Shown here in pieces: positions 25,750-45,725 of a stretch of DNA of 64,000 nucleotides; position 1 is the first letter of the stretch, and every line of letters begins with the position of its first letter. The position numbers and the translations under genes are program-made. The notes beneath the pieces are model-generated. The model had not been told where the DNA came from. It searched no databases and saw only the letters and a list, made by a program, of their open reading frames with translations. The stretch covers positions 3,393,501 to 3,457,500 of the forward strand of contig NZ_OW485601.1 in the NCBI RefSeq assembly GCF_937425535.1, read 5' to 3'. This DNA is from Rhodovastum atsumiense (lineage in GTDB: Bacteria; Pseudomonadota; Alphaproteobacteria; Acetobacterales; Acetobacteraceae).

Positions 25750-27273
25750 ATGGCGATCAATCTCAGGACGGCAGTGGTCGAGAACCGCGAGCAGCGGCTC
25801 GGCACCATCATAGGGTGGGATGAAGGCAGCGCGTCGCTGCTGGCCGAGCAGTCGGAATTCTCGCGCGGCGGCTGCGGCAGCAAATGCGGTCCGGGCAGCA
25901 AAGGGGCCCGCATCTGCGAGTTGCAGAGCCCCTTCACCCAGGGCGGCAGTTGCAGCGAGCAGGTGGTGCAGGCACTCGGCAGCTCTATCCTCGATGCCGT
26001 GCTGGTCCAGCATTCCCCGATCGGGTGTGCTGCGAACATGGCCAGCAACAACGCCAATTTCCGCAACGCGCTCAACCGCCTCGGCCGGCCGGTGCGCAAC
26101 AATACCGCGGTGTCGACCAACCTGACCGAACGCGACATGGTCTATGGCGGCGTCGACAAGTTGCAGGCTGCCATCCGCGAAGCCTATCGCCGGCACCAGC
26201 CCAAGGCCGTATTCATCGCCACCTCCTGCGCCACCGGCATCATCGGCGATGACGTCGAGACCGCCGCCCGCGAGGTCGAGGAGGAGATCGGCATCCCGGT
26301 GATCCCGGTGTTCTGCGAAGGCTTCAAGTCGAAGCACTGGAGCACCGGCTTCGATGCCATCCAGCACGGCATCCTGCGCAAGCTCGTCCGCCGCAACCCG
26401 GAACGCAAGCAGAAGGACCTTGTCAACGTCGTTATCCTTCCCGGCAGCGACGTCTACACGCCGATGCTGGCCGAACTCGGGCTGCGGGCCAATCTCGTGG
26501 TCAACCAGGCCACGGTGGAGCAACTGCAGCAGATGTCCGAAGCCGCCGCCTCGGTGACTTTCTGCTACACCCTCGCGAGCTACATCACCGCGGCGCTGGA
26601 ACAGGAATTCGGCGTGCCCGAGGTCAAGGCACCGCAGCCCTACGGCTTTTCCGGCACCGATGCCTGGCTGCGCGCCCTCGGCAAGGTGACCGACCGCGAG
26701 GCCGCGGTCGAAGCCTACATCGCCCGCGAAAAGGCCCGGGTCACGCCGATCATCGAGGACCTGCGCCGCCAGCTTGCCGGCCTGCGCGGCTATGTCGCGA
26801 TGGGGGCTTCCTTTGCGCATGGCGTCGTGGTGGTGCTGCGCGAACTCGGCATCGAGGTGCCCGGCACGCTGGTGTTCCACCACGACCCCACCTACGACAG
26901 CGGCTCGCCGGAGCGCGACACGCTCGGCCACCTGGTCGATGCCACCGGCGATGTCGACACCTTCACCGTCGGCGTCCGGCAGCATTATCAGTTCTACAAC
27001 CTGCTGCAGCGGGTGAACCCGGATTTCGTCGTCATCCGCCATGGCGGGCTGTCGCCACTGGCCTCCCGGCTCGGCATGCCATCGCTGCAGCTCGGAGATT
27101 CCAGCTTCGCCCTCGGCTATCAGGGGATCGTCAATCTTGGATACGAGATCCTGACCGCCCTGCAGCACCGGAAATTCCATGAAGACCTGAAGGCCCACAG
27201 CTCGTTGCCCTATCGGGAATCCTGGCTGGCCGAGAAAGATCCGTTCGCGCTCGCCCGCGCCGCCACGGAGTAA
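25750..27273 (+). CDS. Solitary nitrogenase component 1 alpha-like (NifD-like) protein
   Basis: 507 residues, the length of NifD. The three P-cluster-type cysteines are placed as in NifD: Cys68 (GSCSEQ), Cys93 (HSPIGCAAN) and Cys160 (SCATGIIGDD). The block TNLTERDMVYGGVDKLQAAI closely mirrors the corresponding NifD segment, and Cys272 (FCYTLASYITAALEQEFGVP) matches the FeMo-cofactor ligand Cys275. The FeMo-co His442 position (SLQLGDSS) lacks His, and the His195 region (STGFDA) also lacks it. Extra N-terminal cysteines (Cys42, Cys46, Cys56) are unusual. No nifH, nifK or nifB lies in the window. Sulfur-type neighbours suggest a reductase acting on a C-S or other compound. A terminator follows. 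Confidence 0.88.
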   Translation: MAINLRTAVVENREQRLGTIIGWDEGSASLLAEQSEFSRGGCGSKCGPGSKGARICELQSPFTQGGSCSEQVVQALGSSILDAVLVQHSPIGCAANMASNNANFRNALNRLGRPVRNNTAVSTNLTERDMVYGGVDKLQAAIREAYRRHQPKAVFIATSCATGIIGDDVETAAREVEEEIGIPVIPVFCEGFKSKHWSTGFDAIQHGILRKLVRRNPERKQKDLVNVVILPGSDVYTPMLAELGLRANLVVNQATVEQLQQMSEAAASVTFCYTLASYITAALEQEFGVPEVKAPQPYGFSGTDAWLRALGKVTDREAAVEAYIAREKARVTPIIEDLRRQLAGLRGYVAMGASFAHGVVVVLRELGIEVPGTLVFHHDPTYDSGSPERDTLGHLVDATGDVDTFTVGVRQHYQFYNLLQRVNPDFVVIRHGGLSPLASRLGMPSLQLGDSSFALGYQGIVNLGYEILTALQHRKFHEDLKAHSSLPYRESWLAEKDPFALARAATE

Positions 27274-27279
27274 GCCGCT

Positions 27280-27308
27280 GCCCCGCCGCCCGCCAGGGCC
27301 GGCGGGGC
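27280..27308 (+). terminator. Rho-independent terminator after the NifD-like gene
   Basis: A 9-bp stem (GCCCCGCCG at 27280-27288 with 27300-27308) and an 11-base loop are followed directly by ATTTTC. The downstream aldo/keto reductase starts 40 bases later, so it may be only partly co-transcribed. Confidence 0.65.
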
Positions 27309-27348
27309 ATTTTCGAAGTTGCGTTTGTCTGACAGGATATCACGGATC

Positions 27349-28404
27349 ATGGTGGAATACCGACCGCTTGGGCGCACCGATCTCCGGGTGTCGGCGCTTT
27401 GCCTCGGCACGATGACCTGGGGCCAGCAGAACACGGAGCAGGAGGGGCATGCGCAACTCGACGTCGCCCGTGAGCGTGGCCTCAACTTTCTCGACACCGC
27501 CGAGAGCTATTCGATTCCGCCGCGTGCCGAGACCCAGGGCTCCACCGAGCGGATCATCGGCACCTGGCTGAAAAGCCGCGGCGGACGCGACAAGGTGGTG
27601 ATCGCCACCAAGGTTTCCGGGCGCAGCACCAGCACCTACCTGCGGCCCGGCGGCGCCCATCCGGAGCTGAACCGCGCGAATATCCATCATGCGGTGGAAG
27701 GGTCGCTGCGGCGGCTGCAGACCGACTACATCGATCTCTATCAGTTGCACTGGCCCGACCGGGCCTTGCCGCTGTTTGCAGAAAGTTCCACGGTGTTTCG
27801 TGATCTGCCGCCGGGGCCGGAAAACCCGATCGAGGAAACCCTCGCCGCGCTGCAGGATCTGGTGGCCGCCGGCAAGGTGCGCCATGTCGGCCTGTCCAAC
27901 GAAACCGCCTGGGGCACCACGCGGTTTCTCGCCGCCGCCGCGGCCGGGCATGGGCCGCGGGTGGTGAGCATCCAGAACGCCTATCACCTGCTCAATCGGA
28001 CTTTCGAGATCGGGCTGGCCGAGATCGCCCTGCGCGAGCAGGTCGGGCTGCTGGCCTATTCGCCGCTTGCCCAGGGCTACCTGACCGGCAAGTACCGCAA
28101 CGGCAGCCTGCCGCCCGGTGCCCGCGCCACCCTCTTCGGACGGACCCAGCGCTACCAGAAACCCGGAGTGAGCGAGGCGATCGAGCGCTACCTGCGGCTG
28201 GCCGACGACATCGGCGTGCCGCCGGCGCAGCTTGCGCTGGCCTTCGTGCTGACCCGAAAATTCGTGACCTCGGTGATCATCGGCGCCACCACGCCGGCAC
28301 AATTGGCCGAGAACCTCGGCGTGCTGGACCGGACGATCATCACGCCGGAGGTGGAAGCGGTGATCGATGCGATCCATCAGGTCCACAGCAATCCGGCACC
28401 TTGA
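27349..28404 (+). CDS. Aldo/keto reductase, Tas-like
   Basis: 351 residues forming a TIM barrel. The catalytic tetrad is visible: Asp and Tyr in FLDTAESYSIP, Lys in VIATKVSG, and His in YQLHWPDRAL. The C-terminal NADPH-binding loop reads IIGATTPAQLAENL. The insert after the fourth strand and the overall length resemble E. coli Tas. It would reduce a carbonyl with NADPH; the substrate is unknown. It immediately follows the NifD-like gene on the same strand. The start at MVEYRPLGRTDLRVS is the family's usual one; a TTG 30 bases upstream is less likely. Confidence 0.9.
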   Translation: MVEYRPLGRTDLRVSALCLGTMTWGQQNTEQEGHAQLDVARERGLNFLDTAESYSIPPRAETQGSTERIIGTWLKSRGGRDKVVIATKVSGRSTSTYLRPGGAHPELNRANIHHAVEGSLRRLQTDYIDLYQLHWPDRALPLFAESSTVFRDLPPGPENPIEETLAALQDLVAAGKVRHVGLSNETAWGTTRFLAAAAAGHGPRVVSIQNAYHLLNRTFEIGLAEIALREQVGLLAYSPLAQGYLTGKYRNGSLPPGARATLFGRTQRYQKPGVSEAIERYLRLADDIGVPPAQLALAFVLTRKFVTSVIIGATTPAQLAENLGVLDRTIITPEVEAVIDAIHQVHSNPAP

Positions 28405-28422
28405 TCCGGCGGCCTGCGCGGG

Positions 28423-28446
28423 GGGAGGGGGGAATCCGCCCCTCCC
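28423..28446. terminator. Hairpin between convergent aldo/keto reductase and binding-protein genes
   Basis: An 8-bp stem (GGGAGGGG at 28423-28430 with 28439-28446) encloses an 8-base loop. It lies between two stop codons and could serve both directions. Confidence 0.5.
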
Positions 28447-28461: not shown

Positions 28462-29559
28462 TCAACTGGTGAGCAGATCCAGGACGATCCGATTGGTGAA
28501 CTGATCCGGATCCGTGCCCGACCTGAGGACGCCGGTTTCCTTCAGCCCCTGCGCGTACCAGAGGATTTGACGGCGCAACGCTTCACCGGTCGGGCAGCCG
28601 CGTTCCTCGTCGTAGGGATAGGCCGCGATCATTTCCCCCAGTTCTTCCGGCTTGACCTGACGGGGTGAAAAGAATTGTGCGGCCTCGACAGCCAGGAAGT
28701 TGTTGTGATCAACGGCGAGCGAGGCTTCGACCATGGCGCGGGTGAGTGCTGCTGCCGCCGGGCGGTTGTCACGGATCAACCGGCCGCTGATCCCCAGCGC
28801 ACAGCACGTGCGTTTCCCCAGTTCGCCCGTGCCGTTGGCGGCCAGTTCGAACAATGTCCCGTTGCTGCGTTTGATCGCGAAATAGGCGTTGGGATAGCCG
28901 TCGGCAAAGGCATCGATCTCGCCTTTCTGGACGGCAATGGTGAAGACGTCAGGCGGATACTGCCGCCAGGTGTACGAGTCGGGCGGCAAGCCGTTGCGAC
29001 CGAGATGGATGTCGTAAAGCATCTTCATCGGGCTGGTCAGGTCTTTCATGCCGATCCGCTTGCCGCGCAAATCCTGCAGCGTGGCGATGCCGGCCGCACG
29101 CGAGGCCACCAGGATCGAGCAGCCGCCATGTGTCCCCGCGGTCAGCTTCATGTCGAAGCCGCCTTCGAGCGGCTTGAGCATGCTCAGCACGAAATTGGAT
29201 GTGGCGTCCGCCTTGCCGAGTGCGACGGCCTGGACGACCGTTGTGGTGTCGTATCCAACATCGAGGATGTCCACATCCAGCCCGTACTTGTCGAAGATGC
29301 CTTGCCGCTTCGCCAGTCCGATCACCACGAGGCACAGTGCGGACGGCGACCAGATGATGGTGATTTTGGTGCGGGTCTGGATCAACGCCGGCGCGGCCAG
29401 ATCGGCGGCGCGAAGCAACCGCGGCAATGCGCCGACCATTCCTGCGGTGCCGACAACGGCCCCGAGCTTCAACAGATTGCGCCGACGCGGCCCCGATGCG
29501 GCAGGCGGCCGTTCAGGGGCAGGGCTACCGGCGACCACGCCGTTGGCGTTTGAATCCAT
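28462..29559 (-). CDS. SsuA/NMT1-type ABC substrate-binding protein, copy A
   Basis: 365 residues from MDSNANG. A twin-arginine-like signal (GPRRRNLLKLGAVVGTAG) precedes a binding-protein fold of the nitrate/sulfonate/taurine class. Landmarks are TIIWSPSALCLVVIGLAKRQG, LGKADATSNFVLS, GGCSILVASRAAGI and DLRGKRIGMKDLTSP. It ends in LKETGVLRSGTDPDQFTNRI, the usual closing helix. It is clearly paralogous to the protein at 31920-33020. No permease or ATPase of the Ssu/Tau type is nearby, so it may dock on a distant transporter. AAGGA ten bases upstream supports the start. TAGTC elements lie in its promoter. Confidence 0.85.
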   Translation of the reverse strand: MDSNANGVVAGSPAPERPPAASGPRRRNLLKLGAVVGTAGMVGALPRLLRAADLAAPALIQTRTKITIIWSPSALCLVVIGLAKRQGIFDKYGLDVDILDVGYDTTTVVQAVALGKADATSNFVLSMLKPLEGGFDMKLTAGTHGGCSILVASRAAGIATLQDLRGKRIGMKDLTSPMKMLYDIHLGRNGLPPDSYTWRQYPPDVFTIAVQKGEIDAFADGYPNAYFAIKRSNGTLFELAANGTGELGKRTCCALGISGRLIRDNRPAAAALTRAMVEASLAVDHNNFLAVEAAQFFSPRQVKPEELGEMIAAYPYDEERGCPTGEALRRQILWYAQGLKETGVLRSGTDPDQFTNRIVLDLLTS

Positions 29560-30288
29560 CGCGATCCGGTCCTTGTGCATGCGCAAGCGCGGGCAAGACG
29601 ATGGCAGGACAAGCGCCGCGGCAGGCTGACACGACGCAATGCCTCAGGGCGACGGGTGATAACTATTATACTTTATTTAATCGTAGTCAAGTTTATTCCA
29701 CGTATAATTATCTTATAATGTAGTCGGGAAGTGATATTTGGGATTGGCTTTATCTCCTTCTGGTGGCATGGCGGGCGCGCAGCCTCGGCAGCAAGGCTGG
29801 GACCCAATGTCGTGGCCGGGTCGACCGCCATTCGGTTCTGCTTCGAGACGAACCCTGGCGGGCAGCATGAGGCGGGCAGCCTGAAGGGGGGGCGGGCAAC
29901 CGTACCGTCCCCATCTTTCCGCTTACTGGTGTGTCGACGCGTGAATACGATTTTGTGGTGTGCAATCCAGGCTCTCTGCCCACATATTCGTGGTTCACTT
30001 TCCTCGGCCGGATGGGCGGAGACGCTCATCTTGTTCGAAGGTCCGTCCAAACATATCCACGCCGTCCAATCGCTGCTGCAATGGAACGGCCATAAACGGG
30101 GGAGACGGAAAATGAAACGGCAGGAAATCTTTGCAATAAACTTACCAACGACAACAAAAATGTATCTATGGCGCCACGGATCTGTTCCGTTTCTGGGGTG
30201 GTCATAAAGAATTGGTGTTGCGGTCGACCATGCTTGCCCATGGTTGGGTTAACCGATTACGCTAACACCTGAAATGTGAGGCTAAGCC
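29560..30288. other. Long non-coding stretch with AT-rich promoter segment
   Basis: About 730 bases without a supported gene. Bases 29655-29725 are strongly AT-rich with TATAAT-like boxes and a TAGTCAA element at 29684-29690 plus TAGTC at 29721-29725, matching elements seen in other promoters of this region. The remainder holds only poor open frames. Confidence 0.45.
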
Positions 30289-31746: not shown

Positions 31747-31919
31747 CCTGGTTGCCCAGGGACAGAAGGGGAGTCGGGTGCTGGCATTATAACCATTGAT
31801 GACCGTACAATTTCATTGACTCCGATACAATGCCGTATAATCCTTTCCCGAGCCGCCGAACAAGTCCGTGCTCCGCGGCTCACCACATTCCATTCACCGA
31901 GACGAACGAGAGCGGCATC

Positions 31920-33020
31920 ATGACGTCGTATCCGCATCAGATCGGCAGCCTGCCCCGCGTCGGTTCGGCCGGTGGGCATGGGACGGTCCGGCGCCGCGGC
32001 CTGCTGCGCCTGGGCATGGTGGCCGCCGTGACGGCGCCGTTCGGGCTGCGCCCGTCGCCGGCCAGCGCCGCCGCGGAGCTGGGGGCCCCGGCAATCCTGC
32101 AGGGGCGCAACAAGCTGACCATCATCTGGACCCCCTCTTCGCTGTGCAACGTGGTCATCGGCTTGGCGCAGCGGCAGGGCATCTACGAAAAGCATGGGCT
32201 GGACGTCACCACGCTCAATGTCGGGTCGGACACCTCGGCCATCCTGGAGGCTCTGGCCCTGGGCAAGGCCGATGCCACCTCGAATTTCCTGTTGCGTTTC
32301 CTCAAGCCGCTGGAAGCTGGGTTCGACGTGAAGCTGACCGCCGGCGTGCATGGTGGCTGCTCGATCCTGATCGGCTCGCGCGATGCCGGGATCGAGAAGC
32401 TGCAGGACCTGGCCGGCAAGCGCATCGGCATGAGCGACCTCAGCAGCCCGATGAAGCTGCTGTACGAAATCCACCTGAGGAAGAACGGGGTGCCGCCGGA
32501 TTCGATCACCTGGCGGCAGTTTCCCGCCGACGTCTTCCCCCTTGCCGTGCAGAAGAAGGAGATCGAAGCCTTCGCCGACGGCCATCCCACGGCCTATTAC
32601 GCGATCAAGCGCAGCAATGGCCGGCTGTTCGAGCTTGCCTCGAACGGCACCGGCGAGCTTGGCCAGTACACCTGCTGCGTGCTGGCGGTCAGCGGCAAGC
32701 TGCTGCGCGAGAACCGCCCGGCCGCCGTCGCGCTGACGCGCGCCATGGTCGAAGCTTCAAAAATGGTCGACCGCAACAACAGCCTTGCCGTCGACGCGGC
32801 GCAGCACTACTCCCCGCGCCAGGTCAAGCCGGAGGAGATCGGCGAGATGATCGCGAGCTACCCATACGACGAGGTGCGCGGTTGCCCGACCGGCGAGGCC
32901 TTCCGCAAGCACGTGCTCTATTTCGCGCAAGGGCTGAAGGAGACCGGCATTCTCAAGCCCAGCACCGACGTGGTGAAATTCACCAACCGCATCACCCTCG
33001 ACATCCTGTCGACGAGCTGA
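31920..33020 (+). CDS. SsuA/NMT1-type ABC substrate-binding protein, copy B
   Basis: 366 residues from MTSYPHQ. A signal with TVRRRGLLRLGMVAAV and SAAAELG leads into a fold nearly superimposable on copy A: TIIWTPSSLCNVVIGLAQRQG, GCSILIGSRDAGI, LAGKRIGMSDLSSPMK. By eye more than half the residues are identical to copy A, with the same conserved Cys positions (TCCVLAVSG, EVRGCPTGEA). Ligands of this class include sulfonates, nitrate and pyrimidine precursors. No membrane partners are adjacent. TATAAT at 31836-31841 lies in the promoter. Confidence 0.87.
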   Translation: MTSYPHQIGSLPRVGSAGGHGTVRRRGLLRLGMVAAVTAPFGLRPSPASAAAELGAPAILQGRNKLTIIWTPSSLCNVVIGLAQRQGIYEKHGLDVTTLNVGSDTSAILEALALGKADATSNFLLRFLKPLEAGFDVKLTAGVHGGCSILIGSRDAGIEKLQDLAGKRIGMSDLSSPMKLLYEIHLRKNGVPPDSITWRQFPADVFPLAVQKKEIEAFADGHPTAYYAIKRSNGRLFELASNGTGELGQYTCCVLAVSGKLLRENRPAAVALTRAMVEASKMVDRNNSLAVDAAQHYSPRQVKPEEIGEMIASYPYDEVRGCPTGEAFRKHVLYFAQGLKETGILKPSTDVVKFTNRITLDILSTS

Positions 33021-34460: not shown

Positions 34461-34854
34461 CCCCGGCCGCCTCGATCCTGGTGGATCCGGCGCGAGAGGT
34501 TTCCCATCATGGTGCAGGGCCGGAATGCCGTGCCGGTCTCCATCGTTCCGATCTCCGCCGGGCATGGCCCGGGCTTGCTGGGCGGCAAGGGTACCGAATA
34601 CCGAACGGGTCTGTGACGCGTTGGCCAGGCATGCATGGCGGAACACGTCCGTTGGATCCGGAGGAGCAGTATAATGTACGATTCAATTTCATACAATACA
34701 TGTAAACACCATTTGTTGTCGTGTTTTCCAATTGCGCGCCCGGCGTCGCCGACGTTAATGTTTCAGGGTGCCTGTGTCCGCATGGCCGGACGAGGCTGTG
34801 GCGCATCCCGTCGGATCACGCGGATGCGCCGGAAACACAGGGGGAGATCCGATC
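34461..34854. promoter_or_regulatory. Promoter region of the flavin monooxygenase operon
   Basis: Nearly 400 bases without a supported gene. An AT-rich core at 34668-34715 contains TATAAT and CAATTTCATACAATAC, a probable promoter for 34855-37467. The divergent acetyltransferase promoter also lies here. Confidence 0.4.
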
Positions 34855-36198: not shown

Positions 36199-36237
36199 GC
36201 CGCCCTTGGCGGGCTGCGCAACAAGGAAGGGATGTTG

Positions 36238-37467
36238 ATGACCATAGCGACTGCTGCCGTCATTTCGCCGGCCGCGCCGGCGCCGCTCGATCCGGACAGC
36301 GCGGGCTTCCAGGCGCTGCTGGACGGCATCGCCCTCGGTGCCGTCGAACGCGAGCGCGAGCGGATCCATCCCTTCGAACCGCTCGCGCAGATCCGCGCCG
36401 CCCGCCTCGGCGCGCTGCGGCTGCCGCGCGCGGATGGTGGCCTGGGGGCAAGCAACCGCCAGCTCTATGATGTGATCATCCGGCTGGCCGACGCCGATGC
36501 CAATGTCGCGCATTCCCTGCGCAGCCACTTTATCTTCGTCGAACGCTACCTGCTCGGCCCGCGCCTCGGCCCGGTGCAGGAAACGTGGCGGCAGGCGGTG
36601 GCCGAGGGCGCGATCTTCGGCATCGCCTCCGGCGAGACGCAGACCAAAACCGTCGGCAACGCCGTCGAGAACACGCTGCTCACGCCGGATGGCGACGGGT
36701 TCCGCCTCAACGGCACCAAGTTCTACAGCACCGGCACGCTGTATGCGGATTACGTGCAGGTGCGCGCCCGGCTGCCGGACGGCGCACTGGCCTCGGCGAT
36801 CCTGCCGATCAGCCGTCCCGGTGTGGAGGCGGTGGACGATTGGGACGGGTTCGGGCAGCGCGTCACCGGCTCCGGCACCACGCTGTTCCAGGACGTGCGG
36901 GTGGAGCCGCACGAGGTGATCCCGGACGAGGCGGACGGCTTCGCCCGCGCGCCCTATTCCAACACCGCCGCGCAACTCTTCCTGACCGCGGTCAACGCCG
37001 GCATCCTCCGCGCCACCCTGCGCGACGCCGCGGCGCTGGTGCGGCGGCGCGACCGCAATTTCTACTACGCCCCGAGCGAGCGCCCGGCGGACGACCCGGT
37101 GCTGCAGCAGACGGTCGGCGTGATCGCCAGCAACGCCTTCGTCGCCGGCGCGGCCGTGCTGGCGGCGGCCGACGCCCTGGACCGGCTGGATGCCCGGCGG
37201 CATGGCCCGGACGCGGCGGCGGCGGCCCACGAGGCGGCTTTGCTGGCGGCCCAGGCCAAGATCGTGGTCGACGACCTCGCCATCCGCTCCGGCTCGCTGC
37301 TGTTCGACGTGGGCGGGGCTTCGGCGACCCGGCGCGGCCCGGATCTCGACCGCCACTGGCGCAACGCCCGCACCATCTCCTCGCATAACCCGGCGACCTA
37401 CAAGGCGGTATGGGTCGGCAACCACGTCATCAACGGCACGCCCTTGCCGGCGAACAGTTTTTTCTGA
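36238..37467 (+). CDS. DszC/SfnB-type acyl-CoA-dehydrogenase-like flavoprotein A
   Basis: 409 residues. It has an N-terminal helical domain (RLGALRLPRADGGLGASN), a middle beta domain (IASGETQTKTVGN, FRLNGTKFYSTGTLYADYV) and a C-terminal four-helix domain ending with HWRNARTISSHNPATYKAVWVGNHVING. The last motif is typical of the DszC/SfnB monooxygenases rather than true acyl-CoA dehydrogenases. These proteins use reduced flavin to oxygenate sulfur compounds such as dibenzothiophene or dimethylsulfone. The second ATG is used because AGGAAGG is seven bases away. It lies 39 bases after the DszA-like gene, so they probably form one operon. Confidence 0.88.
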   Translation: MTIATAAVISPAAPAPLDPDSAGFQALLDGIALGAVERERERIHPFEPLAQIRAARLGALRLPRADGGLGASNRQLYDVIIRLADADANVAHSLRSHFIFVERYLLGPRLGPVQETWRQAVAEGAIFGIASGETQTKTVGNAVENTLLTPDGDGFRLNGTKFYSTGTLYADYVQVRARLPDGALASAILPISRPGVEAVDDWDGFGQRVTGSGTTLFQDVRVEPHEVIPDEADGFARAPYSNTAAQLFLTAVNAGILRATLRDAAALVRRRDRNFYYAPSERPADDPVLQQTVGVIASNAFVAGAAVLAAADALDRLDARRHGPDAAAAAHEAALLAAQAKIVVDDLAIRSGSLLFDVGGASATRRGPDLDRHWRNARTISSHNPATYKAVWVGNHVINGTPLPANSFF

Positions 37468-37473
37468 AAGAAG

Positions 37474-37640
37474 GAAGGCCAGGGCTCTGCCCTGGACCCG
37501 GCAGGGGGCAGGGGACCCCTGCACCCCAATTCGCGCTGCGCGGCAAAGAATGGGATCCAAGGGCCCTCGGCCCTTGGTGGGAGTCCAGAGGGCAAAGCCC
37601 TCTGGTGGGGTTTGGGGCAACGCCCCAACGCTGAAGACCC
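37474..37640. repeat. Dispersed GC-rich palindromic repeat, copy 4 (two units)
   Basis: The first unit (CCAGGGCTCTGCCCTGG, then the TCGCGCTGCGCGGC block) matches copies 1 and 3. The second unit (GGGATCCAAGGGCCCTCGGCCCTTGG, CCAGAGGGCAAAGCCCTCTGG, GGGGCAACGCCCC) matches copies 2 and 6. It shows how the two halves belong to one larger repeat. Confidence 0.7.
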
Positions 37641-37674: not shown

Positions 37675-37730
37675 CGATAGCCCGCGCGCTCTGCCGCGGG
37701 CCGGGGTCGTTGCGGCGGGGATGCGCGGGC

Positions 37731-38186
37731 ATGCTGACGAACAAGGCCAAGTATGGCGTGAAGGCGGTGGTGTATCTTGCCGGCCTGCCGCCGGGCGAGA
37801 CGGCGCTGATCGCCGACATTGCCGCGCGCAACAACATCCCCAAGAAGTTCCTCGACGCCATCCTGCTGGAGTTGCGCAATGCCGGTCTGGTGCGGTCGCG
37901 CAAGGGGCCGGGTGGCGGCTATGCGCTGGCGCGCAGTGCGCGGGAGATCAAGGTCGGCGAGGTGATCCGGGCGCTCGACGGCCCGTTGGTGCCGCTGGCC
38001 TGTGCCAATGCCGAGACCGCCGTTTCCTGCGAGGACTGTGCGACCATGGCGGTCTGTCCGGTGCGGATGGTGATGTCGGAGGTCAATGACGCGGTGTCCG
38101 CCATCCTCGACCGCACCAGCCTCTCCGCCCTGGTGGCGCAGACCCCGGTGCCGCGGCGCCGCGACGCCTGGGCCTACGAGATCTGA
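37731..38186 (+). CDS. Rrf2-family transcription regulator, possible Fe-S sensor
   Basis: 151 residues from MLTNKAKYGVKAV. The winged helix (ALIADIAARNNIPKKFLDAILLELRNAGLVRSRKGPGGGYALA) is the Rrf2 signature. Four cysteines (CANAETAVSC, EDC, AVC) follow the dimerisation helix, a pattern that often holds an iron-sulfur cluster. Rrf2 proteins such as CymR and IscR sense cysteine supply or cluster status, which fits the surrounding sulfur-type genes. Candidate operators occur at 37666, 40135 and 43040. An ATG seven codons upstream is less likely. Confidence 0.88.
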   Translation: MLTNKAKYGVKAVVYLAGLPPGETALIADIAARNNIPKKFLDAILLELRNAGLVRSRKGPGGGYALARSAREIKVGEVIRALDGPLVPLACANAETAVSCEDCATMAVCPVRMVMSEVNDAVSAILDRTSLSALVAQTPVPRRRDAWAYEI

Positions 38187-39089
38187 TCAGGACGCGGCGA
38201 GGCGCGGGTTGAGCGCCTCGTTCAGCCCATCGCCGATCAGGTTCAGCGCCAGCACCGTGACCACGATGGCGAGGCCCGGGACGGCGCTGAGGTACCACGC
38301 GCTGCGCAGCAGCTCGCGGCCGGCGCCGATCATCGAGCCCCAGCTGATCACGTTGGGATCGCCCAGCCCCATGAAGGACAGCGCGCTTTCCATCAGGATC
38401 GCGGTGGCGACGCCGACCGAGGCCATGACGATCACCGGTGGCAGGGCGTTGGGCAGGATCTCGCGCAGGATGATGTGGGCATGGCCGAAGCCCAGGGCGC
38501 GTGCCGCCAGCACGAACTCGGCCTCGCGCAGGCTGCGGAACTCGCCGCGCACCAGCCGCGCGATCGCCGGCCAGGCGACCAGGCCGATGGCGCCGGTGAT
38601 CGCCGGCACCGAGGGCCCGGCGATGGCGACGACCACGATCAGCAGGATGAAGCCGGGCACGGTCTGGAAGATCTCGACCAGCCGCACCAGCACGTCGTCG
38701 GTGCGCCCGCCGAAATAGCCGGCGAGCGCGCCGACCGTGGTGCCCAGCAGCAGGCTGACCAGCGTCGCCGCGGCCCCTACCAGCAGGCTGACCCGCGCGC
38801 CGTGCACCAGCCCGGCCAGCACGTCGCGGCCGAGCGCGTCCGTCCCCAGCGGGAAGCGCGCATCCTGCCCCGGCCACAGCAGCGGCCGTGCCACCATGTC
38901 GAGCGGGTCGCCGGGAAAGGTCAGGGGGGCCGTCAGTGCCGCCAGCGTCACCAGCAGCAGGATCAGCAGCCCGGTCAGGGCGGCCGGGTTGGCGGCGGTG
39001 CGCCGCAGGGCGCGGCCACGGTCGCCGCGCGGGGGATGCCGTACGGCGATCGTGGCCGGGGCGGGCAGGTCCAGCTCGATCCCGCTCAT
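38187..39089 (-). CDS. Peptide/nickel-type ABC transporter permease (DppC-like)
   Basis: 300 residues with six membrane segments. The family N-terminus TAANPAALTGLLILLLVTLAAL and PLGTDALGRDVLAGLVHGARVSL is followed by the EAA coupling loop EFVLAARALGFGHAHIILREILPNALPP and WGSMIGAGRE. It imports small peptides, metal complexes or other solutes together with the DppB-like gene. It overlaps that gene's end by one base. Its binding protein is probably the one at 41388-42983. No DppD/F ATPase is found in the window. Confidence 0.9.
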   Translation of the reverse strand: MSGIELDLPAPATIAVRHPPRGDRGRALRRTAANPAALTGLLILLLVTLAALTAPLTFPGDPLDMVARPLLWPGQDARFPLGTDALGRDVLAGLVHGARVSLLVGAAATLVSLLLGTTVGALAGYFGGRTDDVLVRLVEIFQTVPGFILLIVVVAIAGPSVPAITGAIGLVAWPAIARLVRGEFRSLREAEFVLAARALGFGHAHIILREILPNALPPVIVMASVGVATAILMESALSFMGLGDPNVISWGSMIGAGRELLRSAWYLSAVPGLAIVVTVLALNLIGDGLNEALNPRLAAS

Positions 39090-40075
39090 CAGCGCAGTTC
39101 CAGGCGCGGATCAAGCCAGGCCTGCACCACGTCGCTCAGGGCGTTGACCGCCACCACCAGCAGCGAGGACAGCAGCAGGATGCCCAGCAGCAGGGTGAAG
39201 TCGCGTCCCATCACCGCCTCGAAGGCGAGCCGTCCCAGCCCCGGCCAGCTATAGACCGTCTCCACCACCACCGCCCCGCCCATCAGCCCGCCGAGATGGA
39301 TCCCCGCCATGGTGGCCACCGGCAGCAGCGCGTTGGGCAAGGCGTGGCGGAAGGTGACGGCCAGCCGCGACAGCCCCTTGGCGCGGGCGGTGCGCACGAA
39401 ATCCTGTGACTGCACCTCCAGCATCACCCCGCGGGTCAGGCGCGCGTAGATGGCGACGTAGAACAGCGCGAGCGAAAGCGCCGGCAGCACCATGTGGCGG
39501 GCGCGGTCGAGCAGGGCGGCGAGGCCACCGAGCCCGGCGCCGATCGTCTCCGCCCCGCCGCTTGGCAGCCAGCCGAGGTGGACCGAGAACAGCACGATCA
39601 GCATCAGTCCGATCCAGAACCCCGGCGTGGAGTAGAACAGCAACGCGCCGACCGAGAGCACGCGGTCGATCCAGCCCCCGGCGAAGCGCGCCATCAGCGC
39701 CCCCACGGCGACGCCCAGCACCAGGGCGAGCGCCAGGGCGACCCCCATCAGCAGCAGTGTGTTGGGCATGCGCTGCCCGATCAGCGCCGCCACCGGCATG
39801 TTGTAGCGCGGTGACTGGCCGAGGCTGAAATGCGCGAGGGCATCGAGGTAGTTCAGGAACTGCCCGAGCGCCGGCAGGTCGAGGCCGAACCGGGCCCGCA
39901 GCGCCGTCATCGTCTCCGCCGTCGCCGCGCCGGCCTCGCCGGCCAGCACGTCGGCGACGTCGCCCGGCGCCAGCCGCAGCAGGAAGAAATCCAGCAGGAC
40001 GATGCCCGCCACGGTCGGGATCGCCTGCCACGCGGTGCGGCACAACGCCTTCAGCACGCGCGGGGAACCGGTCAT
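39089..40075 (-). CDS. Peptide/nickel-type ABC transporter permease (DppB-like)
   Basis: 328 residues from MTGSPRV, with about six membrane segments. It shows FFLLRLAPGDVADVLAGEAG, a periplasmic loop, FYSTPGFWIGLMLIVLFSVHLGWLPSGG and the coupling loop DFVRTARAKGLSRLAVTFRHALPNALLPV. AAGG before the chosen ATG supports the start; an ATG 16 codons upstream would include a non-conserved leader. The TTAGTCAA element upstream at 40135 suggests control by the Rrf2 regulator. Confidence 0.9.
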   Translation of the reverse strand: MTGSPRVLKALCRTAWQAIPTVAGIVLLDFFLLRLAPGDVADVLAGEAGAATAETMTALRARFGLDLPALGQFLNYLDALAHFSLGQSPRYNMPVAALIGQRMPNTLLLMGVALALALVLGVAVGALMARFAGGWIDRVLSVGALLFYSTPGFWIGLMLIVLFSVHLGWLPSGGAETIGAGLGGLAALLDRARHMVLPALSLALFYVAIYARLTRGVMLEVQSQDFVRTARAKGLSRLAVTFRHALPNALLPVATMAGIHLGGLMGGAVVVETVYSWPGLGRLAFEAVMGRDFTLLLGILLLSSLLVVAVNALSDVVQAWLDPRLELR

Positions 40076-40115
40076 GCCCTGCCTTTCCGCTGTCCGGGGG
40101 ATCATCGCCGCGAAG

Positions 40116-40146
40116 GTTGACAAACTCTATAAAATTAGTCAACTAA
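40116..40146. promoter_or_regulatory. Inverted repeat and TAGTCAA element before the ABC permease genes
   Basis: GTTGAC at 40116-40121 pairs with GTCAAC at 40138-40143, and TTAGTCAACTAA spans 40135-40146. It lies 40-70 bases upstream of the DppB-like start on the minus strand. The TTAGTCAA part matches the site at 43039. Confidence 0.4.
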
Positions 40147-40237: not shown

Positions 40238-41380
40238 GTGAGCGACACGGCGCTGGAAACGGCGCAGCAGTTGTCGCGCCGTTTCGCGACGACGGCGGCG
40301 GAACTCGACGCCTCCGGGGCCTTCCCACGCGACAACGTCGCCGCGCTGCATGCCGCCGGGCTGACCAATCTGGTGGTTGCGGCGGAACACGGCGGCGGTG
40401 GGGCCGGGCTGGTCACGGCGCGCCGCGTCGTTTCCGAAATCGCGCGGGGCGAACCGTCCACGGCGCTGATCCTGGCGATGCACCTGGCGCAGCACGCCAC
40501 CATCCGCGCCGGGCGGCGCTGGCCCGCCCATCTGGCCGACCGTCTGGTCACGGAGAGCCTGCGCGGCCCGGCGCTGGTGAATGCGCTGCAGGTGGAGCCG
40601 GAGGCCGGCTCGCCCTCCTACGGCACGCTGCCGCACACCACGGCGCGGCGGGATGGGGAGGGGTGGCGCGTCAGCGGCCGCAAGCGCTTCGCCACCGGCT
40701 GCGAGGGGTTGCACTGGTTCATCGTCTCGGCGGTGACCGACGAGCCGGTGCCGCGCCATGGCTCCTTCGCGATCCCGCATCGCGCCCCCGGCATCCGCAT
40801 CCTGCGGACCTGGGACAGCGCGGGCATGCGCGCCACCGGCAGCCACGACGTCGTGTTCGAGGATGTGCCGGTGCCGTACGAGGACACGCTCGATCTTGCC
40901 CCGGCTTCGCTCGGGCCACGGCGGGACGAGGCGCAGATGGTCTGGTTCATGGCGCTGATCGGCGCGGTCTATCACGGCGTGGCGCGGGCGCTGCGCGACG
41001 ACATCCTTGCCTTTGCCGCGCGCCAGTCCCCCGGTGGGCTTGGTGCATCCCTGGCCACGCTGCCGCGCATCCAGGACGAGCTCGGCGCCATCGAGGTGCT
41101 GGTGGAAAGCAGCGAGCGCCTGCTCGATTCCCTCGCCGCCGAGGCCGATGCCGGCGGCACCCCAGGGGCGGTGGCGGCGATGCTGCGGCTGGTCGTGCTG
41201 GAGAACGCCCTGCGCGCCGCCGAACGGGCGCTGGTGATCGCCGGCAATGCCGGGGTATCCCGGCAATTCCCCTTCGAGCGGCATCACCGCAACCTGCTGT
41301 GCGGGCGCACCCACGCGCCCAATCCCGTGCTGGTGCGCGCCAACGCGGCGAAGACGGCGCTGGCCCGGCTGGACACCTGA
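40238..41380 (+). CDS. Acyl-CoA-dehydrogenase-like flavoprotein B (DszC/SfnB class)
   Basis: 380 residues starting at a GTG with GAGG upstream. It begins with a helical domain (LSRRFATTAAELDASGAFP, ALHAAGLTNLVVAAEHGGGG). A middle beta domain contains WRVSGRKRFATGCEGLHWFIV and DSAGMRATGSHDVVFEDVPVP, and a C-terminal helical bundle ends in FERHHRNLLCGRTHAPNP. The last piece replaces the normal acyl-CoA dehydrogenase glutamate region, as in flavin-dependent monooxygenases. It likely oxygenates an organosulfur or related compound. Divergent from the permease operon; convergent with the binding-protein gene. Confidence 0.85.
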   Translation: MSDTALETAQQLSRRFATTAAELDASGAFPRDNVAALHAAGLTNLVVAAEHGGGGAGLVTARRVVSEIARGEPSTALILAMHLAQHATIRAGRRWPAHLADRLVTESLRGPALVNALQVEPEAGSPSYGTLPHTTARRDGEGWRVSGRKRFATGCEGLHWFIVSAVTDEPVPRHGSFAIPHRAPGIRILRTWDSAGMRATGSHDVVFEDVPVPYEDTLDLAPASLGPRRDEAQMVWFMALIGAVYHGVARALRDDILAFAARQSPGGLGASLATLPRIQDELGAIEVLVESSERLLDSLAAEADAGGTPGAVAAMLRLVVLENALRAAERALVIAGNAGVSRQFPFERHHRNLLCGRTHAPNPVLVRANAAKTALARLDT

Positions 41381-41387: not shown

Positions 41388-42983
41388 TCAGGACTCCAGC
41401 CAGAGATCGGCGAAATTGCCGTTCATGCCGGTGACGCCGGTGGTCTGGTCGTGGACCCGCCGGTTGAACACGGTGATGTCGTCCGGCGCGATCAGGTGGA
41501 TGGCGGCGACATCCTCGTGGATCCGCCGCTGGAATTCGAACCAGATCGCCCGCCGCCGCAGCGGGTCGGGCTCCACCGCCGCCGCTTCCAGCAGCCGGTC
41601 GATTTCCGGGTTGTCGTAGTGCGAGACATTGGAAAACGGCAGGCCGATGCGGAAGTTCTTCGACCAGAACACGCGCTGGATGCCCGGCGTCGGGTCGAAG
41701 GTGTTGGACAGCGATTCCAGCGTCAGATCGAAGGCGCGGCCGGTATAGGCCTTCTGGATGTAGGTGGGGAAATCGAAGAACTGGAAATCGACGGCGATAC
41801 CGATGCGTTGCAGCGCCTGCTTGACGAAATCGCCGCTCGCCTGGCCGTTGAACGGATTGGCATAGAGCCGCAGCGTGAGCCTGCTGCCGCCGCCCCGGCG
41901 CGGGAAGCCGGCTTCGTCGAGCAGCCGTCCGGCGCGGCCCGGGTCGAAGGTGTGCGGCCGGATCGACGGATCGACGAAATTCACCAGCCGGGGACTGACC
42001 GCCGAGGGCGCGACTTCGCCATAGCCGAAGAACACCACCTCCAGCAGCCGGCTGGTGTCGATCGCATGCGCGATCGCCTCGCGCACGCGCCGGTCCCGTA
42101 GCACCGGGGTTTCGTAGTTGAAGTAAAGCTGGGTCATGCCGCCGTTGTATTCGCCGCCGCGCCGCTCCGAGCCGATCTGCGGCAAGGCCAGCAGCCGCGC
42201 GAGATCCGATCGCGGCACCGGCGGGCCGCCGCCCAGATCCAGTTCGCCGGTCTCGAACGCCGCCGAGCGCGCCGCCTGGTCGGCGATGAAGCGCACCACG
42301 ATGCGGTCGAGATAGGGCTTCGGCGCGTCCCAGTAGCGGGGATTGCGTTCCAGGATCACGTGGCTGCCCTTGACCCATTCGCGGAACACGAAGGGCCCGG
42401 TGCCGATCGGCGCGCTGGCGTTGCGGTTGGTCAGCGGGTCGGTGTCCTCGTAGACATGCCGTGGCACGATCGGGGATTCGGAGGCGTCGAGCGCATTCAG
42501 CAAATAGGGCGCGGGCTTGGACAGGCGCAGGATCACCGTCAGCGGATCGGGCGTTTCCACCGCGGCGAGGCTGGCGAAGGTGCCGCGTCCGCGCGGGTGG
42601 TATTGCCGCAGCAGCTCGAAGGAATGCGCCACGTCGGCGGCGGTGAAATCTTCGCCGTCATGCCATTTGACGCCGCGGCGCAGCCAGAACGTGTAGCTCA
42701 GCCCGTCCGGCGTCACCGCCCATTGCGTCGCCAGCGCCGGCCGCGGCGTGAAGTTCAGGTCGTAGGTGAGCAGCCCTTCGGTGATCTTGGGCGAGATCCG
42801 CGTCGACGGCCCGGCGGTATGGGCGATGGTCACCAGCGTGGTCGGGTCCTGCTCGACCAGGAAGCGCAGCGTGCCGCCGCGCACCGGCGCCGCCCGTGCG
42901 CCCGCCACCGGCAGCAACGCGGTCCCGAGCCCCAGTGCGGCGGTGCCGAGCAGCGGGCGCCGGCGATACATCCGGTGGTGCAT
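41388..42983 (-). CDS. Peptide-type ABC substrate-binding protein (SBP family 5)
   Basis: 531 residues with a signal peptide (RRRPLLGTAALGLGTALLPVAGARA). The family-5 layout is complete: GGTLRFLVEQDPTTLV, ITEGLLTYDLNFTPRPALATQW, YTFWLRRGVKWHDGEDFTAADV, GTGPFVFREWVKG, YFNYETPVLRDRRVREAIAHAID and a WLES C-terminus. It should deliver solute to the DppBC-like permeases. GGAAGGAAG upstream of the ATG fixes the start. The reading frame stays open far upstream, antisense to the FAD gene, but that part is not coding. Confidence 0.9.
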   Translation of the reverse strand: MHHRMYRRRPLLGTAALGLGTALLPVAGARAAPVRGGTLRFLVEQDPTTLVTIAHTAGPSTRISPKITEGLLTYDLNFTPRPALATQWAVTPDGLSYTFWLRRGVKWHDGEDFTAADVAHSFELLRQYHPRGRGTFASLAAVETPDPLTVILRLSKPAPYLLNALDASESPIVPRHVYEDTDPLTNRNASAPIGTGPFVFREWVKGSHVILERNPRYWDAPKPYLDRIVVRFIADQAARSAAFETGELDLGGGPPVPRSDLARLLALPQIGSERRGGEYNGGMTQLYFNYETPVLRDRRVREAIAHAIDTSRLLEVVFFGYGEVAPSAVSPRLVNFVDPSIRPHTFDPGRAGRLLDEAGFPRRGGGSRLTLRLYANPFNGQASGDFVKQALQRIGIAVDFQFFDFPTYIQKAYTGRAFDLTLESLSNTFDPTPGIQRVFWSKNFRIGLPFSNVSHYDNPEIDRLLEAAAVEPDPLRRRAIWFEFQRRIHEDVAAIHLIAPDDITVFNRRVHDQTTGVTGMNGNFADLWLES

Positions 42984-43030: not shown

Positions 43031-43053
43031 TAGTCGATTTAGTCAATAGACTA
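43031..43053. promoter_or_regulatory. Palindrome TAGTCAATAGACTA in a divergent promoter
   Basis: TAGTCAATAGACTA at 43040-43053 is a perfect inverted repeat of TAGTC around four bases; another TAGTC starts at 43031. It lies between the divergent binding-protein and FAD-enzyme genes, about 50 bases from each start. It is the best candidate operator for the Rrf2 regulator. Confidence 0.5.
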
Positions 43054-43100
43054 TAAGGTTTGGCTCTCCTTTGTGGCGCAGCCGGACGGAGGCATCCCCC

Positions 43101-44528
43101 ATGAGCGATCCTGATTTCCTCGCCCGCGAAACCCTGCGCCTGATCGGGCCCGATCCCGAGAACTGGGTGCCGGACCGGCCCGGCATCGACCACAACGTGG
43201 TCGTGGTCGGCGGCGGCCATGCCGGCAGCACCTTCGCCTTCGCGCTCCGCCGCGCCGGCATCGGCAAGGTGGCGGTGATCGACACGGCGGCGGACGAGGC
43301 GGAGGCGGGGATCTGGCGCAGCACCGCGCGCATGCAGCGCCTGCGCACGCCCAAGTCGCTGCCGGGGCCGGAACTCGGCCATGTCGGGCTTGGCGTGCAG
43401 GCCTGGTACGAGGCCCGCCATGGCCAGGAGGCCTGGGCGGCGATCGACCGCATCGCCCGCACCGACTGGGTGGAGTACCTGGCCTGGTACCGGCGCACGC
43501 TGGGCATCACCCTCCGCACCGCGACGCGGCTGGAACGCATCGAGCCGGCATCGGACCATTTTCGCCTGCATCTGACCGTGGCTGGCACGCCGCGCGTCGA
43601 GACCGCGCGCAAGGTGGTGCTGGCCACCGGCTTCCTCGGCGCCGGCGGCGCCTATGTCCCGTCGGAATTCGCGCAACTGCCGGCGACGCATCTCGCGCAC
43701 ACCTCCGGGCGCATCGATTTCGCTGCCCTGGCCGGCCGCACTGTCGCCGTGGTCGGCGCCGCCGCCTCGGCCTTCGACGCCGCGGCGGTGGCGCTGGAGG
43801 CGGGGGCGGCCTCGGTGCATTTGTTCTCGCGGCGGGCCCGGCTTGCCGCGCTGCCGGTGATCAAGCCGCGCCTCTATCCCGGCGCCTACGACCATTACCC
43901 GGCGCTGCCGGATGCCCTGCGCTGGCGCCAGGCGCGGCGCTTCCGCGAGGCGGGCAGCACGGCGCCGGCGGACGCCATCGCGCGGGTCACGCGCTTCGCC
44001 AATTTCCACCTGCATCTCGGCGCTGCCTGGGACGGTACGGCGGTGGTGGGGGAGACGGTGGAAGCCTATGTCGGTGGCACCACGCACCGCTTCGATTTCG
44101 TCATCGCCGGCACCGGCTATTTCGTCGATCCGGCGGTGCGGCCGGAGCTGCGCGATTTTGCCGGCGACATCCTGCTCTGGCGCGACCGCTACACGCCCCC
44201 GCCGGAGGAAGCCGACGCGGCGCTGGGCCGCTATCCCTATCTGGATCCGGCGCTGGCCTATCAGGAGAAGCAGCCGGGCGCGGCGCCGTTCCTGCGCGAC
44301 ATCCATGCCTTCAATCCTTCGGGCTTTCTCTCCCACGGCCTGCCCATCGGCGACGTGCCGAGTTTCCGCCGCGACATCCCGGCGGTGGTGGCGCGGATCG
44401 GCCGCGACCTGTTCCTTGCCGACCTCGCCCAGCATGAACGGCGCATCGAGGCCGAGGTGACGCCGGATTTCGACGAGACGCTCTATGCCGGCGCGGTCCG
44501 GACGCCGGCGCGCATCGCCGCGGAATGA
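43101..44528 (+). CDS. FAD/NAD(P)-binding monooxygenase-like flavoprotein
   Basis: 475 residues. The FAD Rossmann motif HNVVVVGGGHAGSTFAFALRRAG lies near residue 40, KVVLATGFLGAGGAYVP in the middle, and a second dinucleotide motif TVAVVGAAASAFDAAAVALE further on. FVIAGTGYFVD near residue 340 is typical of N-hydroxylases and Baeyer-Villiger-type enzymes. It could oxidise an amine or sulfur compound imported by the neighbouring ABC system. A GGAGG ribosome site fixes the start. The palindrome upstream suggests regulation with the ABC genes. Confidence 0.85.
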   Translation: MSDPDFLARETLRLIGPDPENWVPDRPGIDHNVVVVGGGHAGSTFAFALRRAGIGKVAVIDTAADEAEAGIWRSTARMQRLRTPKSLPGPELGHVGLGVQAWYEARHGQEAWAAIDRIARTDWVEYLAWYRRTLGITLRTATRLERIEPASDHFRLHLTVAGTPRVETARKVVLATGFLGAGGAYVPSEFAQLPATHLAHTSGRIDFAALAGRTVAVVGAAASAFDAAAVALEAGAASVHLFSRRARLAALPVIKPRLYPGAYDHYPALPDALRWRQARRFREAGSTAPADAIARVTRFANFHLHLGAAWDGTAVVGETVEAYVGGTTHRFDFVIAGTGYFVDPAVRPELRDFAGDILLWRDRYTPPPEEADAALGRYPYLDPALAYQEKQPGAAPFLRDIHAFNPSGFLSHGLPIGDVPSFRRDIPAVVARIGRDLFLADLAQHERRIEAEVTPDFDETLYAGAVRTPARIAAE

Positions 44529-44548
44529 CGGTGGGCGCGTGACGCGAG

Positions 44549-44580
44549 GGGGACGGCGGGGCGCCCCACCCGCCGTCCCC
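44549..44580. terminator. Perfect 12-bp hairpin between convergent genes
   Basis: GGGGACGGCGGG (44549-44560) pairs with CCCGCCGTCCCC (44569-44580) around an 8-base loop. It lies between the stop codons of the FAD flavoprotein and the flavin monooxygenase genes and likely ends both transcripts. Confidence 0.6.
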
Positions 44581-44585
44581 GGCCG

Positions 44586-45725
44586 TCACAGCCGCAGCCC
44601 GGCCTCGCGCAGCAACGGCAGGGTGGTGGCGGCGAAGCGGTCGAAGTCGGGGGCGAAATCGTAGAAGTTCAACTGCACGCCATCGATTCCGGCGCGCTTC
44701 AGCGCCGCGAACTGCGCCACCACCTGTTCCGGCGTGCCGATCACCTCGATGTTGCCGCCCAGCCCGTAGCCCTGCTTGTGGCGCGGATCGTCGCGTCCCT
44801 TCCAGGCCACGGCGTCGCTGTCGTAGCCGCGATGGCCGAAGGAAGTACTGTTCGGTGGGATCTTGTGCGCGACGATGGCATCGAGATAGGCCCGCGTCTC
44901 CGCCTCGGTCTCGCGGCTGATGACGATCGGGTTGATGATGGTTTTCACCTCGCGCCCGCGCGCCCGCGCCCGGTCCTTGATGCGCGCGACATGCGCGGGC
45001 AGCGTTTCCAGCGCGCTGTCGATATGCGCCCCGCCCGGCGAGGTGATGAACACCAGGTCCGAATGCGCGGCGGCGAACTCGATGCCCGCCTCCGATCCGG
45101 TCGCCGTCACCAGGATCGGCCGCCCATACAGCGGCTTGGGCGTGATGTAGCCGTCCTTGAGCTTCCACGATGACAGCCTGGAGTCGTGGGAATAGTTCTC
45201 GGTGTCGGTCCACAGCCGCTGCAGCACCTCGAACAGCTCGGCCGCCATCTCGTAGCGCCGGTCGTGCTCGATCCGCGTCCAACCGAACATCTCGTGCTCG
45301 ACAGCGCGGTGGCCGGTGACGATGTTGATGCCCCAGCGGCCCTTGGCGATGTGGTCGAAGGTGGCGCCGAGCTTGGCGATGTGCAGCGGATGCCACGGCC
45401 CGTACAGCACGTGCAGCGTCGAGATCAGCAGGATGTTGCGCGTGGCCGGCGCCATGGCGCCGAGGGCGACGAAGCTGTCGAGCGACGCCTCGCCATCATA
45501 GCCGCCCTTGGGCAGCCACTGGGTGCGGCTGAAGGCGATGTCGAAGCCCAGCGCATCGGCCTTCTGCACGATCGCCGCGTTGTAGTCATAGGTCCAGGAC
45601 GAGCTGTTCGGCAGCGTCGAGACATGGATGTCCTGCAGGCTGAGGAACAGCCCGAGCATGAGCGGCTGCCGGATCGCGCGGGAGAGCGGGCTGTCGGGGA
45701 AATCGAGCGGTCCACGCTGGGACAT
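44586..45725 (-). CDS. FMNH2-dependent luciferase-type monooxygenase (SsuD/SfnG/RutA-like)
   Basis: 379 residues from MSQRGPL. Bacterial luciferase-fold landmarks are YNAAIVQKADALGFDIAFSR, LISTLHVLYGPWHPLHIAKL, ATFDHIAKGRWGINIVTGHR, FGWTRIEHDRRYEMAAELFEV and PILVTATGSEAGIEFAA. Enzymes of this subgroup cleave C-S bonds of alkanesulfonates or dimethylsulfone, or open the pyrimidine ring, using reduced FMN. No flavin reductase gene is present in the window. GGAG seven bases before the ATG supports the start. AATAGTATA and AAATAGATT, imperfect relatives of the AATAGACTA element, lie upstream. Confidence 0.88.
   Translation of the reverse strand: MSQRGPLDFPDSPLSRAIRQPLMLGLFLSLQDIHVSTLPNSSSWTYDYNAAIVQKADALGFDIAFSRTQWLPKGGYDGEASLDSFVALGAMAPATRNILLISTLHVLYGPWHPLHIAKLGATFDHIAKGRWGINIVTGHRAVEHEMFGWTRIEHDRRYEMAAELFEVLQRLWTDTENYSHDSRLSSWKLKDGYITPKPLYGRPILVTATGSEAGIEFAAAHSDLVFITSPGGAHIDSALETLPAHVARIKDRARARGREVKTIINPIVISRETEAETRAYLDAIVAHKIPPNSTSFGHRGYDSDAVAWKGRDDPRHKQGYGLGGNIEVIGTPEQVVAQFAALKRAGIDGVQLNFYDFAPDFDRFAATTLPLLREAGLRL

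Follow-up and report, generated by a model that had tools for sequence, protein, structure and literature searches.

A methylthio-alkane reductase subunit gene without adjoining partners in Rhodovastum atsumiense

In this work, we analyse a stretch of 64,000 nucleotides of the genome of the purple phototroph Rhodovastum atsumiense (hereafter the window; positions 3393501-3457500 of contig C1, 6.48 Mb, in a genome of 7.42 Mb and 9 contigs) and focus on a nitrogenase-like gene within it that stands apart from the genes it would be expected to accompany. An initial annotation, made from the sequence alone, had described this gene as full-length, solitary and NifD-like, and had proposed that it encodes a new one-subunit variant of a nitrogenase-like reductase of C–S bonds. 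The gene is real and intact. Its product is assigned here to MarD, the catalytic, cofactor-binding subunit family of methylthio-alkane reductase (MAR), and we consider it likely to be a functional extra MarD that substitutes on a MarK shared with the other mar loci of the genome.

Identity of the lone subunit

The translation contains no internal stop and has a single Pfam match, to PF00148 (255.7 bits), the superfamily of NifD, VnfD, AnfD and NifE, with which it has the aligned P-cluster cysteines and the Fe1 cysteine in common. Within its own genome, three paired MarD-type proteins share 82, 61 and 51% identity with it, and the NifD, VnfD, AnfD and NifE-type proteins just 23–27%. When searched with phmmer against solved structures, the top chains are those of MAR (9fmg_A, E 1.2e-219; 9d9u_A, E 1.1e-218), and the next, a nitrogenase alpha chain, follows at E 4.4e-38, a gap of about 180 orders of magnitude. 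The AlphaFold model of the protein (32 rows, predicted local distance difference test score 80, predicted template modelling (TM) score 0.79) also finds these two MAR chains first, with 9fmg_A as its best structure match (62% identity, TM 0.92 on target).

Excerpts of the report on Rhodospirillum rubrum MAR (PMC12552129) give Cys66, Cys91 and Cys158 as the P-cluster ligands of MarD, Cys270 and His429 as those of the [Fe8S9C] cluster, and His194, Trp195, Phe199 and His375 as pocket residues, and they propose Arg428-His429, which lies on a MarD-specific loop and includes the Fe8 ligand His429, as a hallmark. The lone protein keeps the P-cluster cysteines (C68, C93 and C160), the cluster ligands (C272 and H431), the pocket (H196, W197, F201 and H377) and the hallmark (R430-H431), whose histidine is present in 40 of 40 clade relatives and whose arginine in 38, with lysine in the other two. 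It is because the published ligands and the hallmark are all present that we place the protein in MarD. Compared with the R. rubrum MarBHDK system (PDB 9fmg and 9d9u; excerpts of PMC12552129), the fold is also the same, but the lone gene has no adjoining marK, marH or marB, and Ala75-Leu76 replaces Cys73-Gln74.

Membership in the nitrogenase families was considered and rejected. The score against NifD is 154.6 bits (cut-off 653.6), with pocket residues and structure matches disagreeing as well; that against NifE is 155.5 bits (cut-off 505.1), with ligands and pocket of the catalytic MarD type instead; and the alternative nitrogenases are ruled out by scores, pocket residues and structure matches. 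Unlike these proteins, the lone MarD has neither the nitrogenase pocket residues nor the NifD-type position of the histidine ligand. The initial annotation had stated that its proposal would be refuted if the protein fell inside ordinary NifD or NifE with partners elsewhere; in spirit this is the case, as the family is an ordinary, known one with partners elsewhere, but it is MarD.

The Ala75-Leu76 pair lies next to the cluster. In the same excerpts (PMC12552129), Cys73-Gln74 is reported beside the cluster of R. rubrum MarD, and is not proposed there as a hallmark; the two residues stand where NifD has Val70, a residue with a small side chain that admits substrate to the cluster. Position 75 is variable within the MarD family, and position 76 is Gln in 38 of the 40 clade relatives, Ile in one and Leu in one, and Asn in 14 of 14 members of a second MarD clade. 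We count a pair other than Cys-Gln at these positions as a variant within MarD, not as exclusion from the family, and Leu for Gln at 76 may alter the substrate range. The relatives with Ile and Leu (loci L018 and L019) form the sister branch of the lone MarD and are themselves paired, so that the loss of Gln76 need not date from a loss of partners.

Partners, pairing and descent

Only 1 of the 24 PF00148 matches in the genome and none of the 9 PF00142 (NifH) matches (8 full, 1 short) falls inside the window, and a relaxed tblastn search (E ≤ 10) of window positions 20–32 kb with three K proteins and one MarH of the same genome as queries found no convincing K or H remnant, giving just the expected K-to-D cross-match and chance-level pieces. 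Genome-wide, the 24 sort into nif DK and EN (1.00–1.01 Mb), vnf DK and EN with one extra NifE-like gene (0.33–0.345 Mb), anf DK (5.36 Mb), four bch genes (2.46–2.50 Mb), three marDK-type pairs (0.243, 0.25 and 4.17 Mb), an atypical D–K pair with its own H (2.78 Mb) and the window gene. Eight of these proteins were scored against NCBIfam models. VnfD and AnfD exceed their cut-offs and the extra NifE-like protein stays slightly below; the window MarD, MarD and MarK of the 243-kb row and both proteins of the 2.78-Mb pair fall far short of every model. The remaining assignments come from translations and gene order.

The genome thus holds candidate partners in the form of three MarK-type genes, two MarH-like genes (C1:244661 and C1:269495, 96% identical to each other), a full nifB (C1:1009916) and one marB-like, NifB-like gene (C1:266508) whose match to the nifB model is confined to roughly its first two thirds. 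The initial description of a gene without NifH, NifK or assembly genes therefore holds for the window but not for the genome, and the whole-genome search that it called for lends substance to its idea of a borrowed reductase and cofactor machinery. With three marDK-type pairs but two marH-like genes and a single marB-like one, sharing of parts within the genome is suggested. The closest own paralogue belongs to the 243-kb row (Table 1), where it is paired with K and H, carries Gly-Gln at 75–76 and falls in another branch of the small Rhodopila-type clade; the 0.25-Mb pair is part of the second MarD clade, with Asn at position 76 and Trp at 201.

MarD is otherwise found with MarK. A scan of one genome per species (84,980 species), which needs exact query peptide words and is not exhaustive, yielded 49 related loci. 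At 48 of them marD is followed immediately by marK; only L065, a broken gene, departs from this. The marD gene itself is in pieces at L060, L062 and L063, and at L063 (1751-3095; G227:C43) the front half of D leads, in a shifted frame, into the terminal portion of K, which is either a deletion or an assembly fault. In the own genome, three of the four MarD-type genes are paired. Among 397 genomes of the family (E 1e-60), MarD was found in the own genome, G227 and G394, with at least three matches each, in a search that was capped at three scored candidates per genome and overlooked one of the four MarD-type genes of the own genome. When all PF00148 matches of G227 and G394 are listed (20 and 21), the three MarD-type genes of each adjoin a K-type match, one G227 row being broken. 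The class and phylum samples yielded no MarD outside the own genome (1 of 385 and 1 of 398 genomes, the own one each time; E 1e-100). Of the five other genomes of the genus, four have no PF00148 match, and the fifth, G076, has eight but gave no MarD match in the family search. Two plasmid records carry relatives of 41–43% identity, each followed immediately by a further nitrogenase component 1 gene. We found no description of an unpaired MarD in the open-licence PubMed Central literature; excerpts of two reports state that several nifDK-like copies are frequent in genomes that have group IV nitrogenase-like genes (PMC9147875) and mention orphan nifD-like sequences in a methanogen (PMC3464626). 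Excerpts of PMC7005127 and PMC8777916, consulted on relatives of the host, make no mention of MAR.

The lone gene is under ordinary purifying selection, with a rate and constraint that resemble those of paired MarDs. Its ratio of non-synonymous to synonymous divergence (dN/dS) is 0.17, 0.12, 0.14 and 0.20 against the four nearest relatives, at a synonymous divergence of 0.66–1.0, and ranges from 0.09 to 0.13 in the six pairs among those four. At 148 near-invariant columns (at least 97% conserved among the 40 clade MarDs) it deviates twice (R111L and H328K); for 12 further MarDs, a choice from among the 40, the number of deviations is 0–7. In Tajima relative-rate tests, none of 16 comparisons reached p < 0.05 (lowest p 0.058). 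A pseudogene is unsupported given the intact frame, the ligands, dN/dS, the relative rates and the 146 columns that are kept.

We placed the protein in a tree of 56 MarD-type rows, without NifD and NifE, which identity and scores had excluded. It lies among MarDs and groups with those of two marHDK rows from Rhodopila metagenome-assembled genomes (L018 and L019, support 99/96), which are likewise without Gln at 76 (Ile and Leu) but, unlike the lone gene, have marK directly downstream. The nearest named hosts of close relatives of the gene are uncultured Rhodopila and Acetobacteraceae, known as metagenome-assembled genomes. As it groups with MarDs from marHDK rows of other genomes, the lone gene may descend from a second such row or from transfer, followed by loss of its partners. 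It is also possible that it is a within-genome duplicate of the 243-kb marD, a sisterhood that falls below the tree's preference for L018 and L019 yet is not formally rejected (p-AU 0.09); blastn similarity between the two genes stops at the limits of the open reading frames (ORFs).

Directly upstream, at a distance of 262 bp from marD, an old insertion boundary is marked by a partial copy of the 3′ end of a tRNA-Arg, which is 88% identical to an intact tRNA-Arg located 5 kb further upstream. The stretch between the two is of low coding quality: a Pfam scan of 11 ORFs there returned a match just for an EAL-domain gene and no integrase. Separately, a dispersed repeat of about 70 bp occurs in the window at 8222-8296, 10361-10434, 25520-25592, 37464-37626 and 56497-56579, is palindromic at least at 25520, and is also present at L013, L014, L015 and L016.

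Gene neighbourhood and other loci

The genes behind marD (Table 1) are largely as the initial annotation listed them, by profile scores and annotation. The aldo/keto reductase could be co-transcribed with marD. The two SfnB/DszC-like flavoproteins score 280.6 and 124.5 bits, both below the SfnB cut-off of 430.9, and further neighbours, absent from that list, are a response-regulator piece, an FGE-sulfatase/PvdO-like protein, CutA1 and a GNAT protein. Paralogues of the Dpp/Nik permeases (62–65%) lie about 17–19 kb from the 4.17-Mb marDK pair.

Table 1 Features of the window around the lone marD and the closest mar row of the genome
Feature	Coordinates	Strand	Remarks
Intact tRNA-Arg(TCT)	20456-20532		
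tRNA-Arg 3′ part copy	25438-25487		50 bp
Lone marD (MAR cofactor-binding subunit)	25750..27273	+	507 aa, frame intact
Aldo/keto reductase, PRK10625-like	27319..28404	+	start 45-75 bp behind marD
SsuA/NMT1-like substrate-binding protein 1	28462..29586	-	
SsuA/NMT1-like substrate-binding protein 2	31830..33020	+	69% to protein 1
NtaA/DmoA-family FMN monooxygenase	34768..36198	+	580.2 bits, cut-off 279.7
SfnB-like flavoprotein 1	36232..37467	+	
Rrf2-family regulator	37710..38186	+	
Dpp/Nik-type ABC permeases C and B	38187..40123	-	
SfnB-like/acyl-CoA dehydrogenase-like flavoprotein 2	40238..41380	+	
SBP_bac_5 binding protein	41388..42980	-	C-terminal half of 1015-aa mechanical ORF; upper limit set by analyst from domain limits
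FAD/NAD(P) oxidoreductase	43071..44528	+	
SfnG-like luciferase-type monooxygenase	44586..45761	-	187.5 bits, cut-off 383
Own marHDK row	C1:241663-245464	-	MarD 82% identical to lone MarD
Candidate MarK of that row	C1:241663-243039	-	partner of the 82% paralogue

By annotation an organosulfur island is present, but most of it is not characteristic of mar loci. The aldo/keto reductase, both SfnB-like genes, the Rrf2 regulator, the FAD protein, DppC, FGE, CutA and GNAT recur at none of the 49 related loci (37 of which extend over at least 15 kb), NtaA, DppB and SBP5 at one each and SfnG at three; for comparison, genes from elsewhere in the window recur at one (RbcL), one (Tkt) and none (MFS). The initial annotation had stated that a neighbourhood not conserved in related genomes would refute its proposal, and conservation is indeed mostly lacking, with no gene beyond the binding-protein family at more than three loci. 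The SsuA/NMT1-like binding proteins recur at 13 of the 49 (28–42% identity), which amounts to 10 distinct genes because three locus pairs overlap. Of the 9 full-length copies in the own genome, 7 are less than 10 kb away from a mar gene, in regions that together make up 1.3% of the genome, and 4 are less than 5 kb away. When the window locus is set aside, 5 of 7 remain within 10 kb (1.0% of the genome, p 2e-9), and within 5 kb the count is 2 of 7 (p 8e-4). The binomial used for these values assumes independence of the copies, some of which may, however, be local duplicates. On a Treponema plasmid, a binding protein directly precedes a related D–K pair. This recurrence at mar loci makes the two binding proteins a better link between the lone marD and the mar systems than the monooxygenases are.

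Several observations concern the other mar-type loci. At C1:4168013-4175988 (minus strand; L016 9014-16989), marD and marK stand in a row with genes for a NapC/NirT-type cytochrome, a bisC/TorA-family S/N-oxide reductase, which exceeds its NCBIfam cut-off, and an SsuA/NMT1-like binding protein; this arrangement suggests reduction of dimethyl sulfoxide to dimethyl sulfide and cleavage of the latter to methanethiol from one operon. Adjoining the 0.25-Mb pair (C1:247178-255643; L009 11179-19644) are an O-acetylhomoserine sulfhydrylase, a NifX-type protein, a TauD dioxygenase and an NMT1-type importer, for which a link from methanethiol to methionine is plausible. A DIOX_N/2OG-Fe(II)-type oxygenase sits beside the marB-like gene (L010 3371-5396), and an isopenicillin N synthase family oxygenase beside a nifB-H-D-K row of a Chlorohelix plasmid (NZ_CP128401; L087).

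Besides its MAR copies and bch reductases, the genome apparently encodes Mo, V and Fe-only nitrogenases, as judged from the sequence for nif and from scores above cut-off for VnfD and AnfD. The extra NifE-like protein (C1:343357-344739, minus strand; L011 17358-18740; 469 bits, nifE cut-off 505) is a second unpaired subunit, and its gene adjoins the vnf-type EN pair. The nitrogenase-like HDK row at C1:2779133-2782792 (L015 9134-12793) combines an ordinary-looking H with a D that, as aligned, is without P-cluster cysteines 1 and 3, the Fe1 cysteine and the MarD histidine ligand, and judging by these residues it is a superfamily member different from MAR.

Possible roles of an unpaired MarD

In the reading that we favour, the lone MarD would assemble with a MarK encoded elsewhere, which is the most likely arrangement because it has none of its own, and it would need one because its P-cluster cysteines are kept; the best candidate is the MarK of the 243-kb row. 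Its [Fe8S9C] cluster would come from the marB-like or nifB product and its electrons from the two MarH-like proteins, and the hybrid enzyme would cleave C–S bonds of methylthio compounds, yielding methanethiol, with the leucine beside the cluster perhaps shifting the substrate range. Assembly with a shared MarK, the reaction, the change of substrate and expression of the gene are steps that we infer. Some observations weigh against this picture. The end branch of the lone MarD is the longest of its five-member clade (0.17 against 0.04–0.10) and it has the most singleton changes (28 against 5–17), which together with dN/dS at the upper end make some relaxation possible. Moreover, the upstream regions compared have no clear mar promoter motif in common, and the best match (13 of 14 bases), to the marH upstream region, lies near the start codon of the lone marD and has no chance control.

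The same long branch and singletons would fit a leftover of a former marHDK row whose partners were lost and whose D is idle or heading for decay, as would the sister relationship to MarDs in marHDK rows, the lack of an adjoining K or H, and the tRNA-Arg remnant and repeat directly upstream, from which it follows that the site was rearranged. We nevertheless think this unlikely, since the frame, ligands, dN/dS, near-invariant columns and relative rates give no sign of it, and the synonymous divergence implies time enough for a decay that did not happen, although the loss of partners could be recent. A role in assembly or storage of the [Fe8S9C] cluster for other MAR enzymes, akin to that of NifE, has a known analogue in L-cluster-bearing NifEN (excerpts of PMC12552129) and would suit a gene apart from any K; the ligands and pocket, however, are those of catalytic MarD and not of NifE, and the pairing at 48 of 49 loci implies that a lone MarD is seemingly not generally needed as a scaffold, which leaves such a role very improbable. 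Least credible to us, and close to negligible, is a homomeric enzyme in the manner of CfbD, an existing homomeric member of the superfamily (excerpts of PMC12552129). The want of K, H and B in the window speaks for it, but P-cluster cysteines that a K partner completes are kept, and the protein sits deep inside the MarD branch among paired MarDs with just two near-invariant columns changed, so the new one-subunit variant of the initial annotation finds no footing.

If the lone MarD does work on a shared MarK, a more speculative and on the whole doubtful extension is that MAR is modular here, with several MarDs competing for common MarK, MarH and MarB, and that Leu76 redirects the lone-MarD enzyme to other methylthio compounds, in whose delivery the two adjoining binding proteins would assist. 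Such substrates would perhaps be bulkier or less polar, residue 76 being at the site of the Val70 control of substrate access in nitrogenase.

Nitrogenase-family enzymes are usually viewed as fixed D–K pairs, and a MarD that is intact and constrained but has no K, while the genome contains three marDK-type pairs, offers a natural test of subunit exchange on a shared partner. The change at residue 76, in turn, offers a handle on the substrate range of MAR, and with it on the release of methane, ethane and ethylene from organosulfur compounds.

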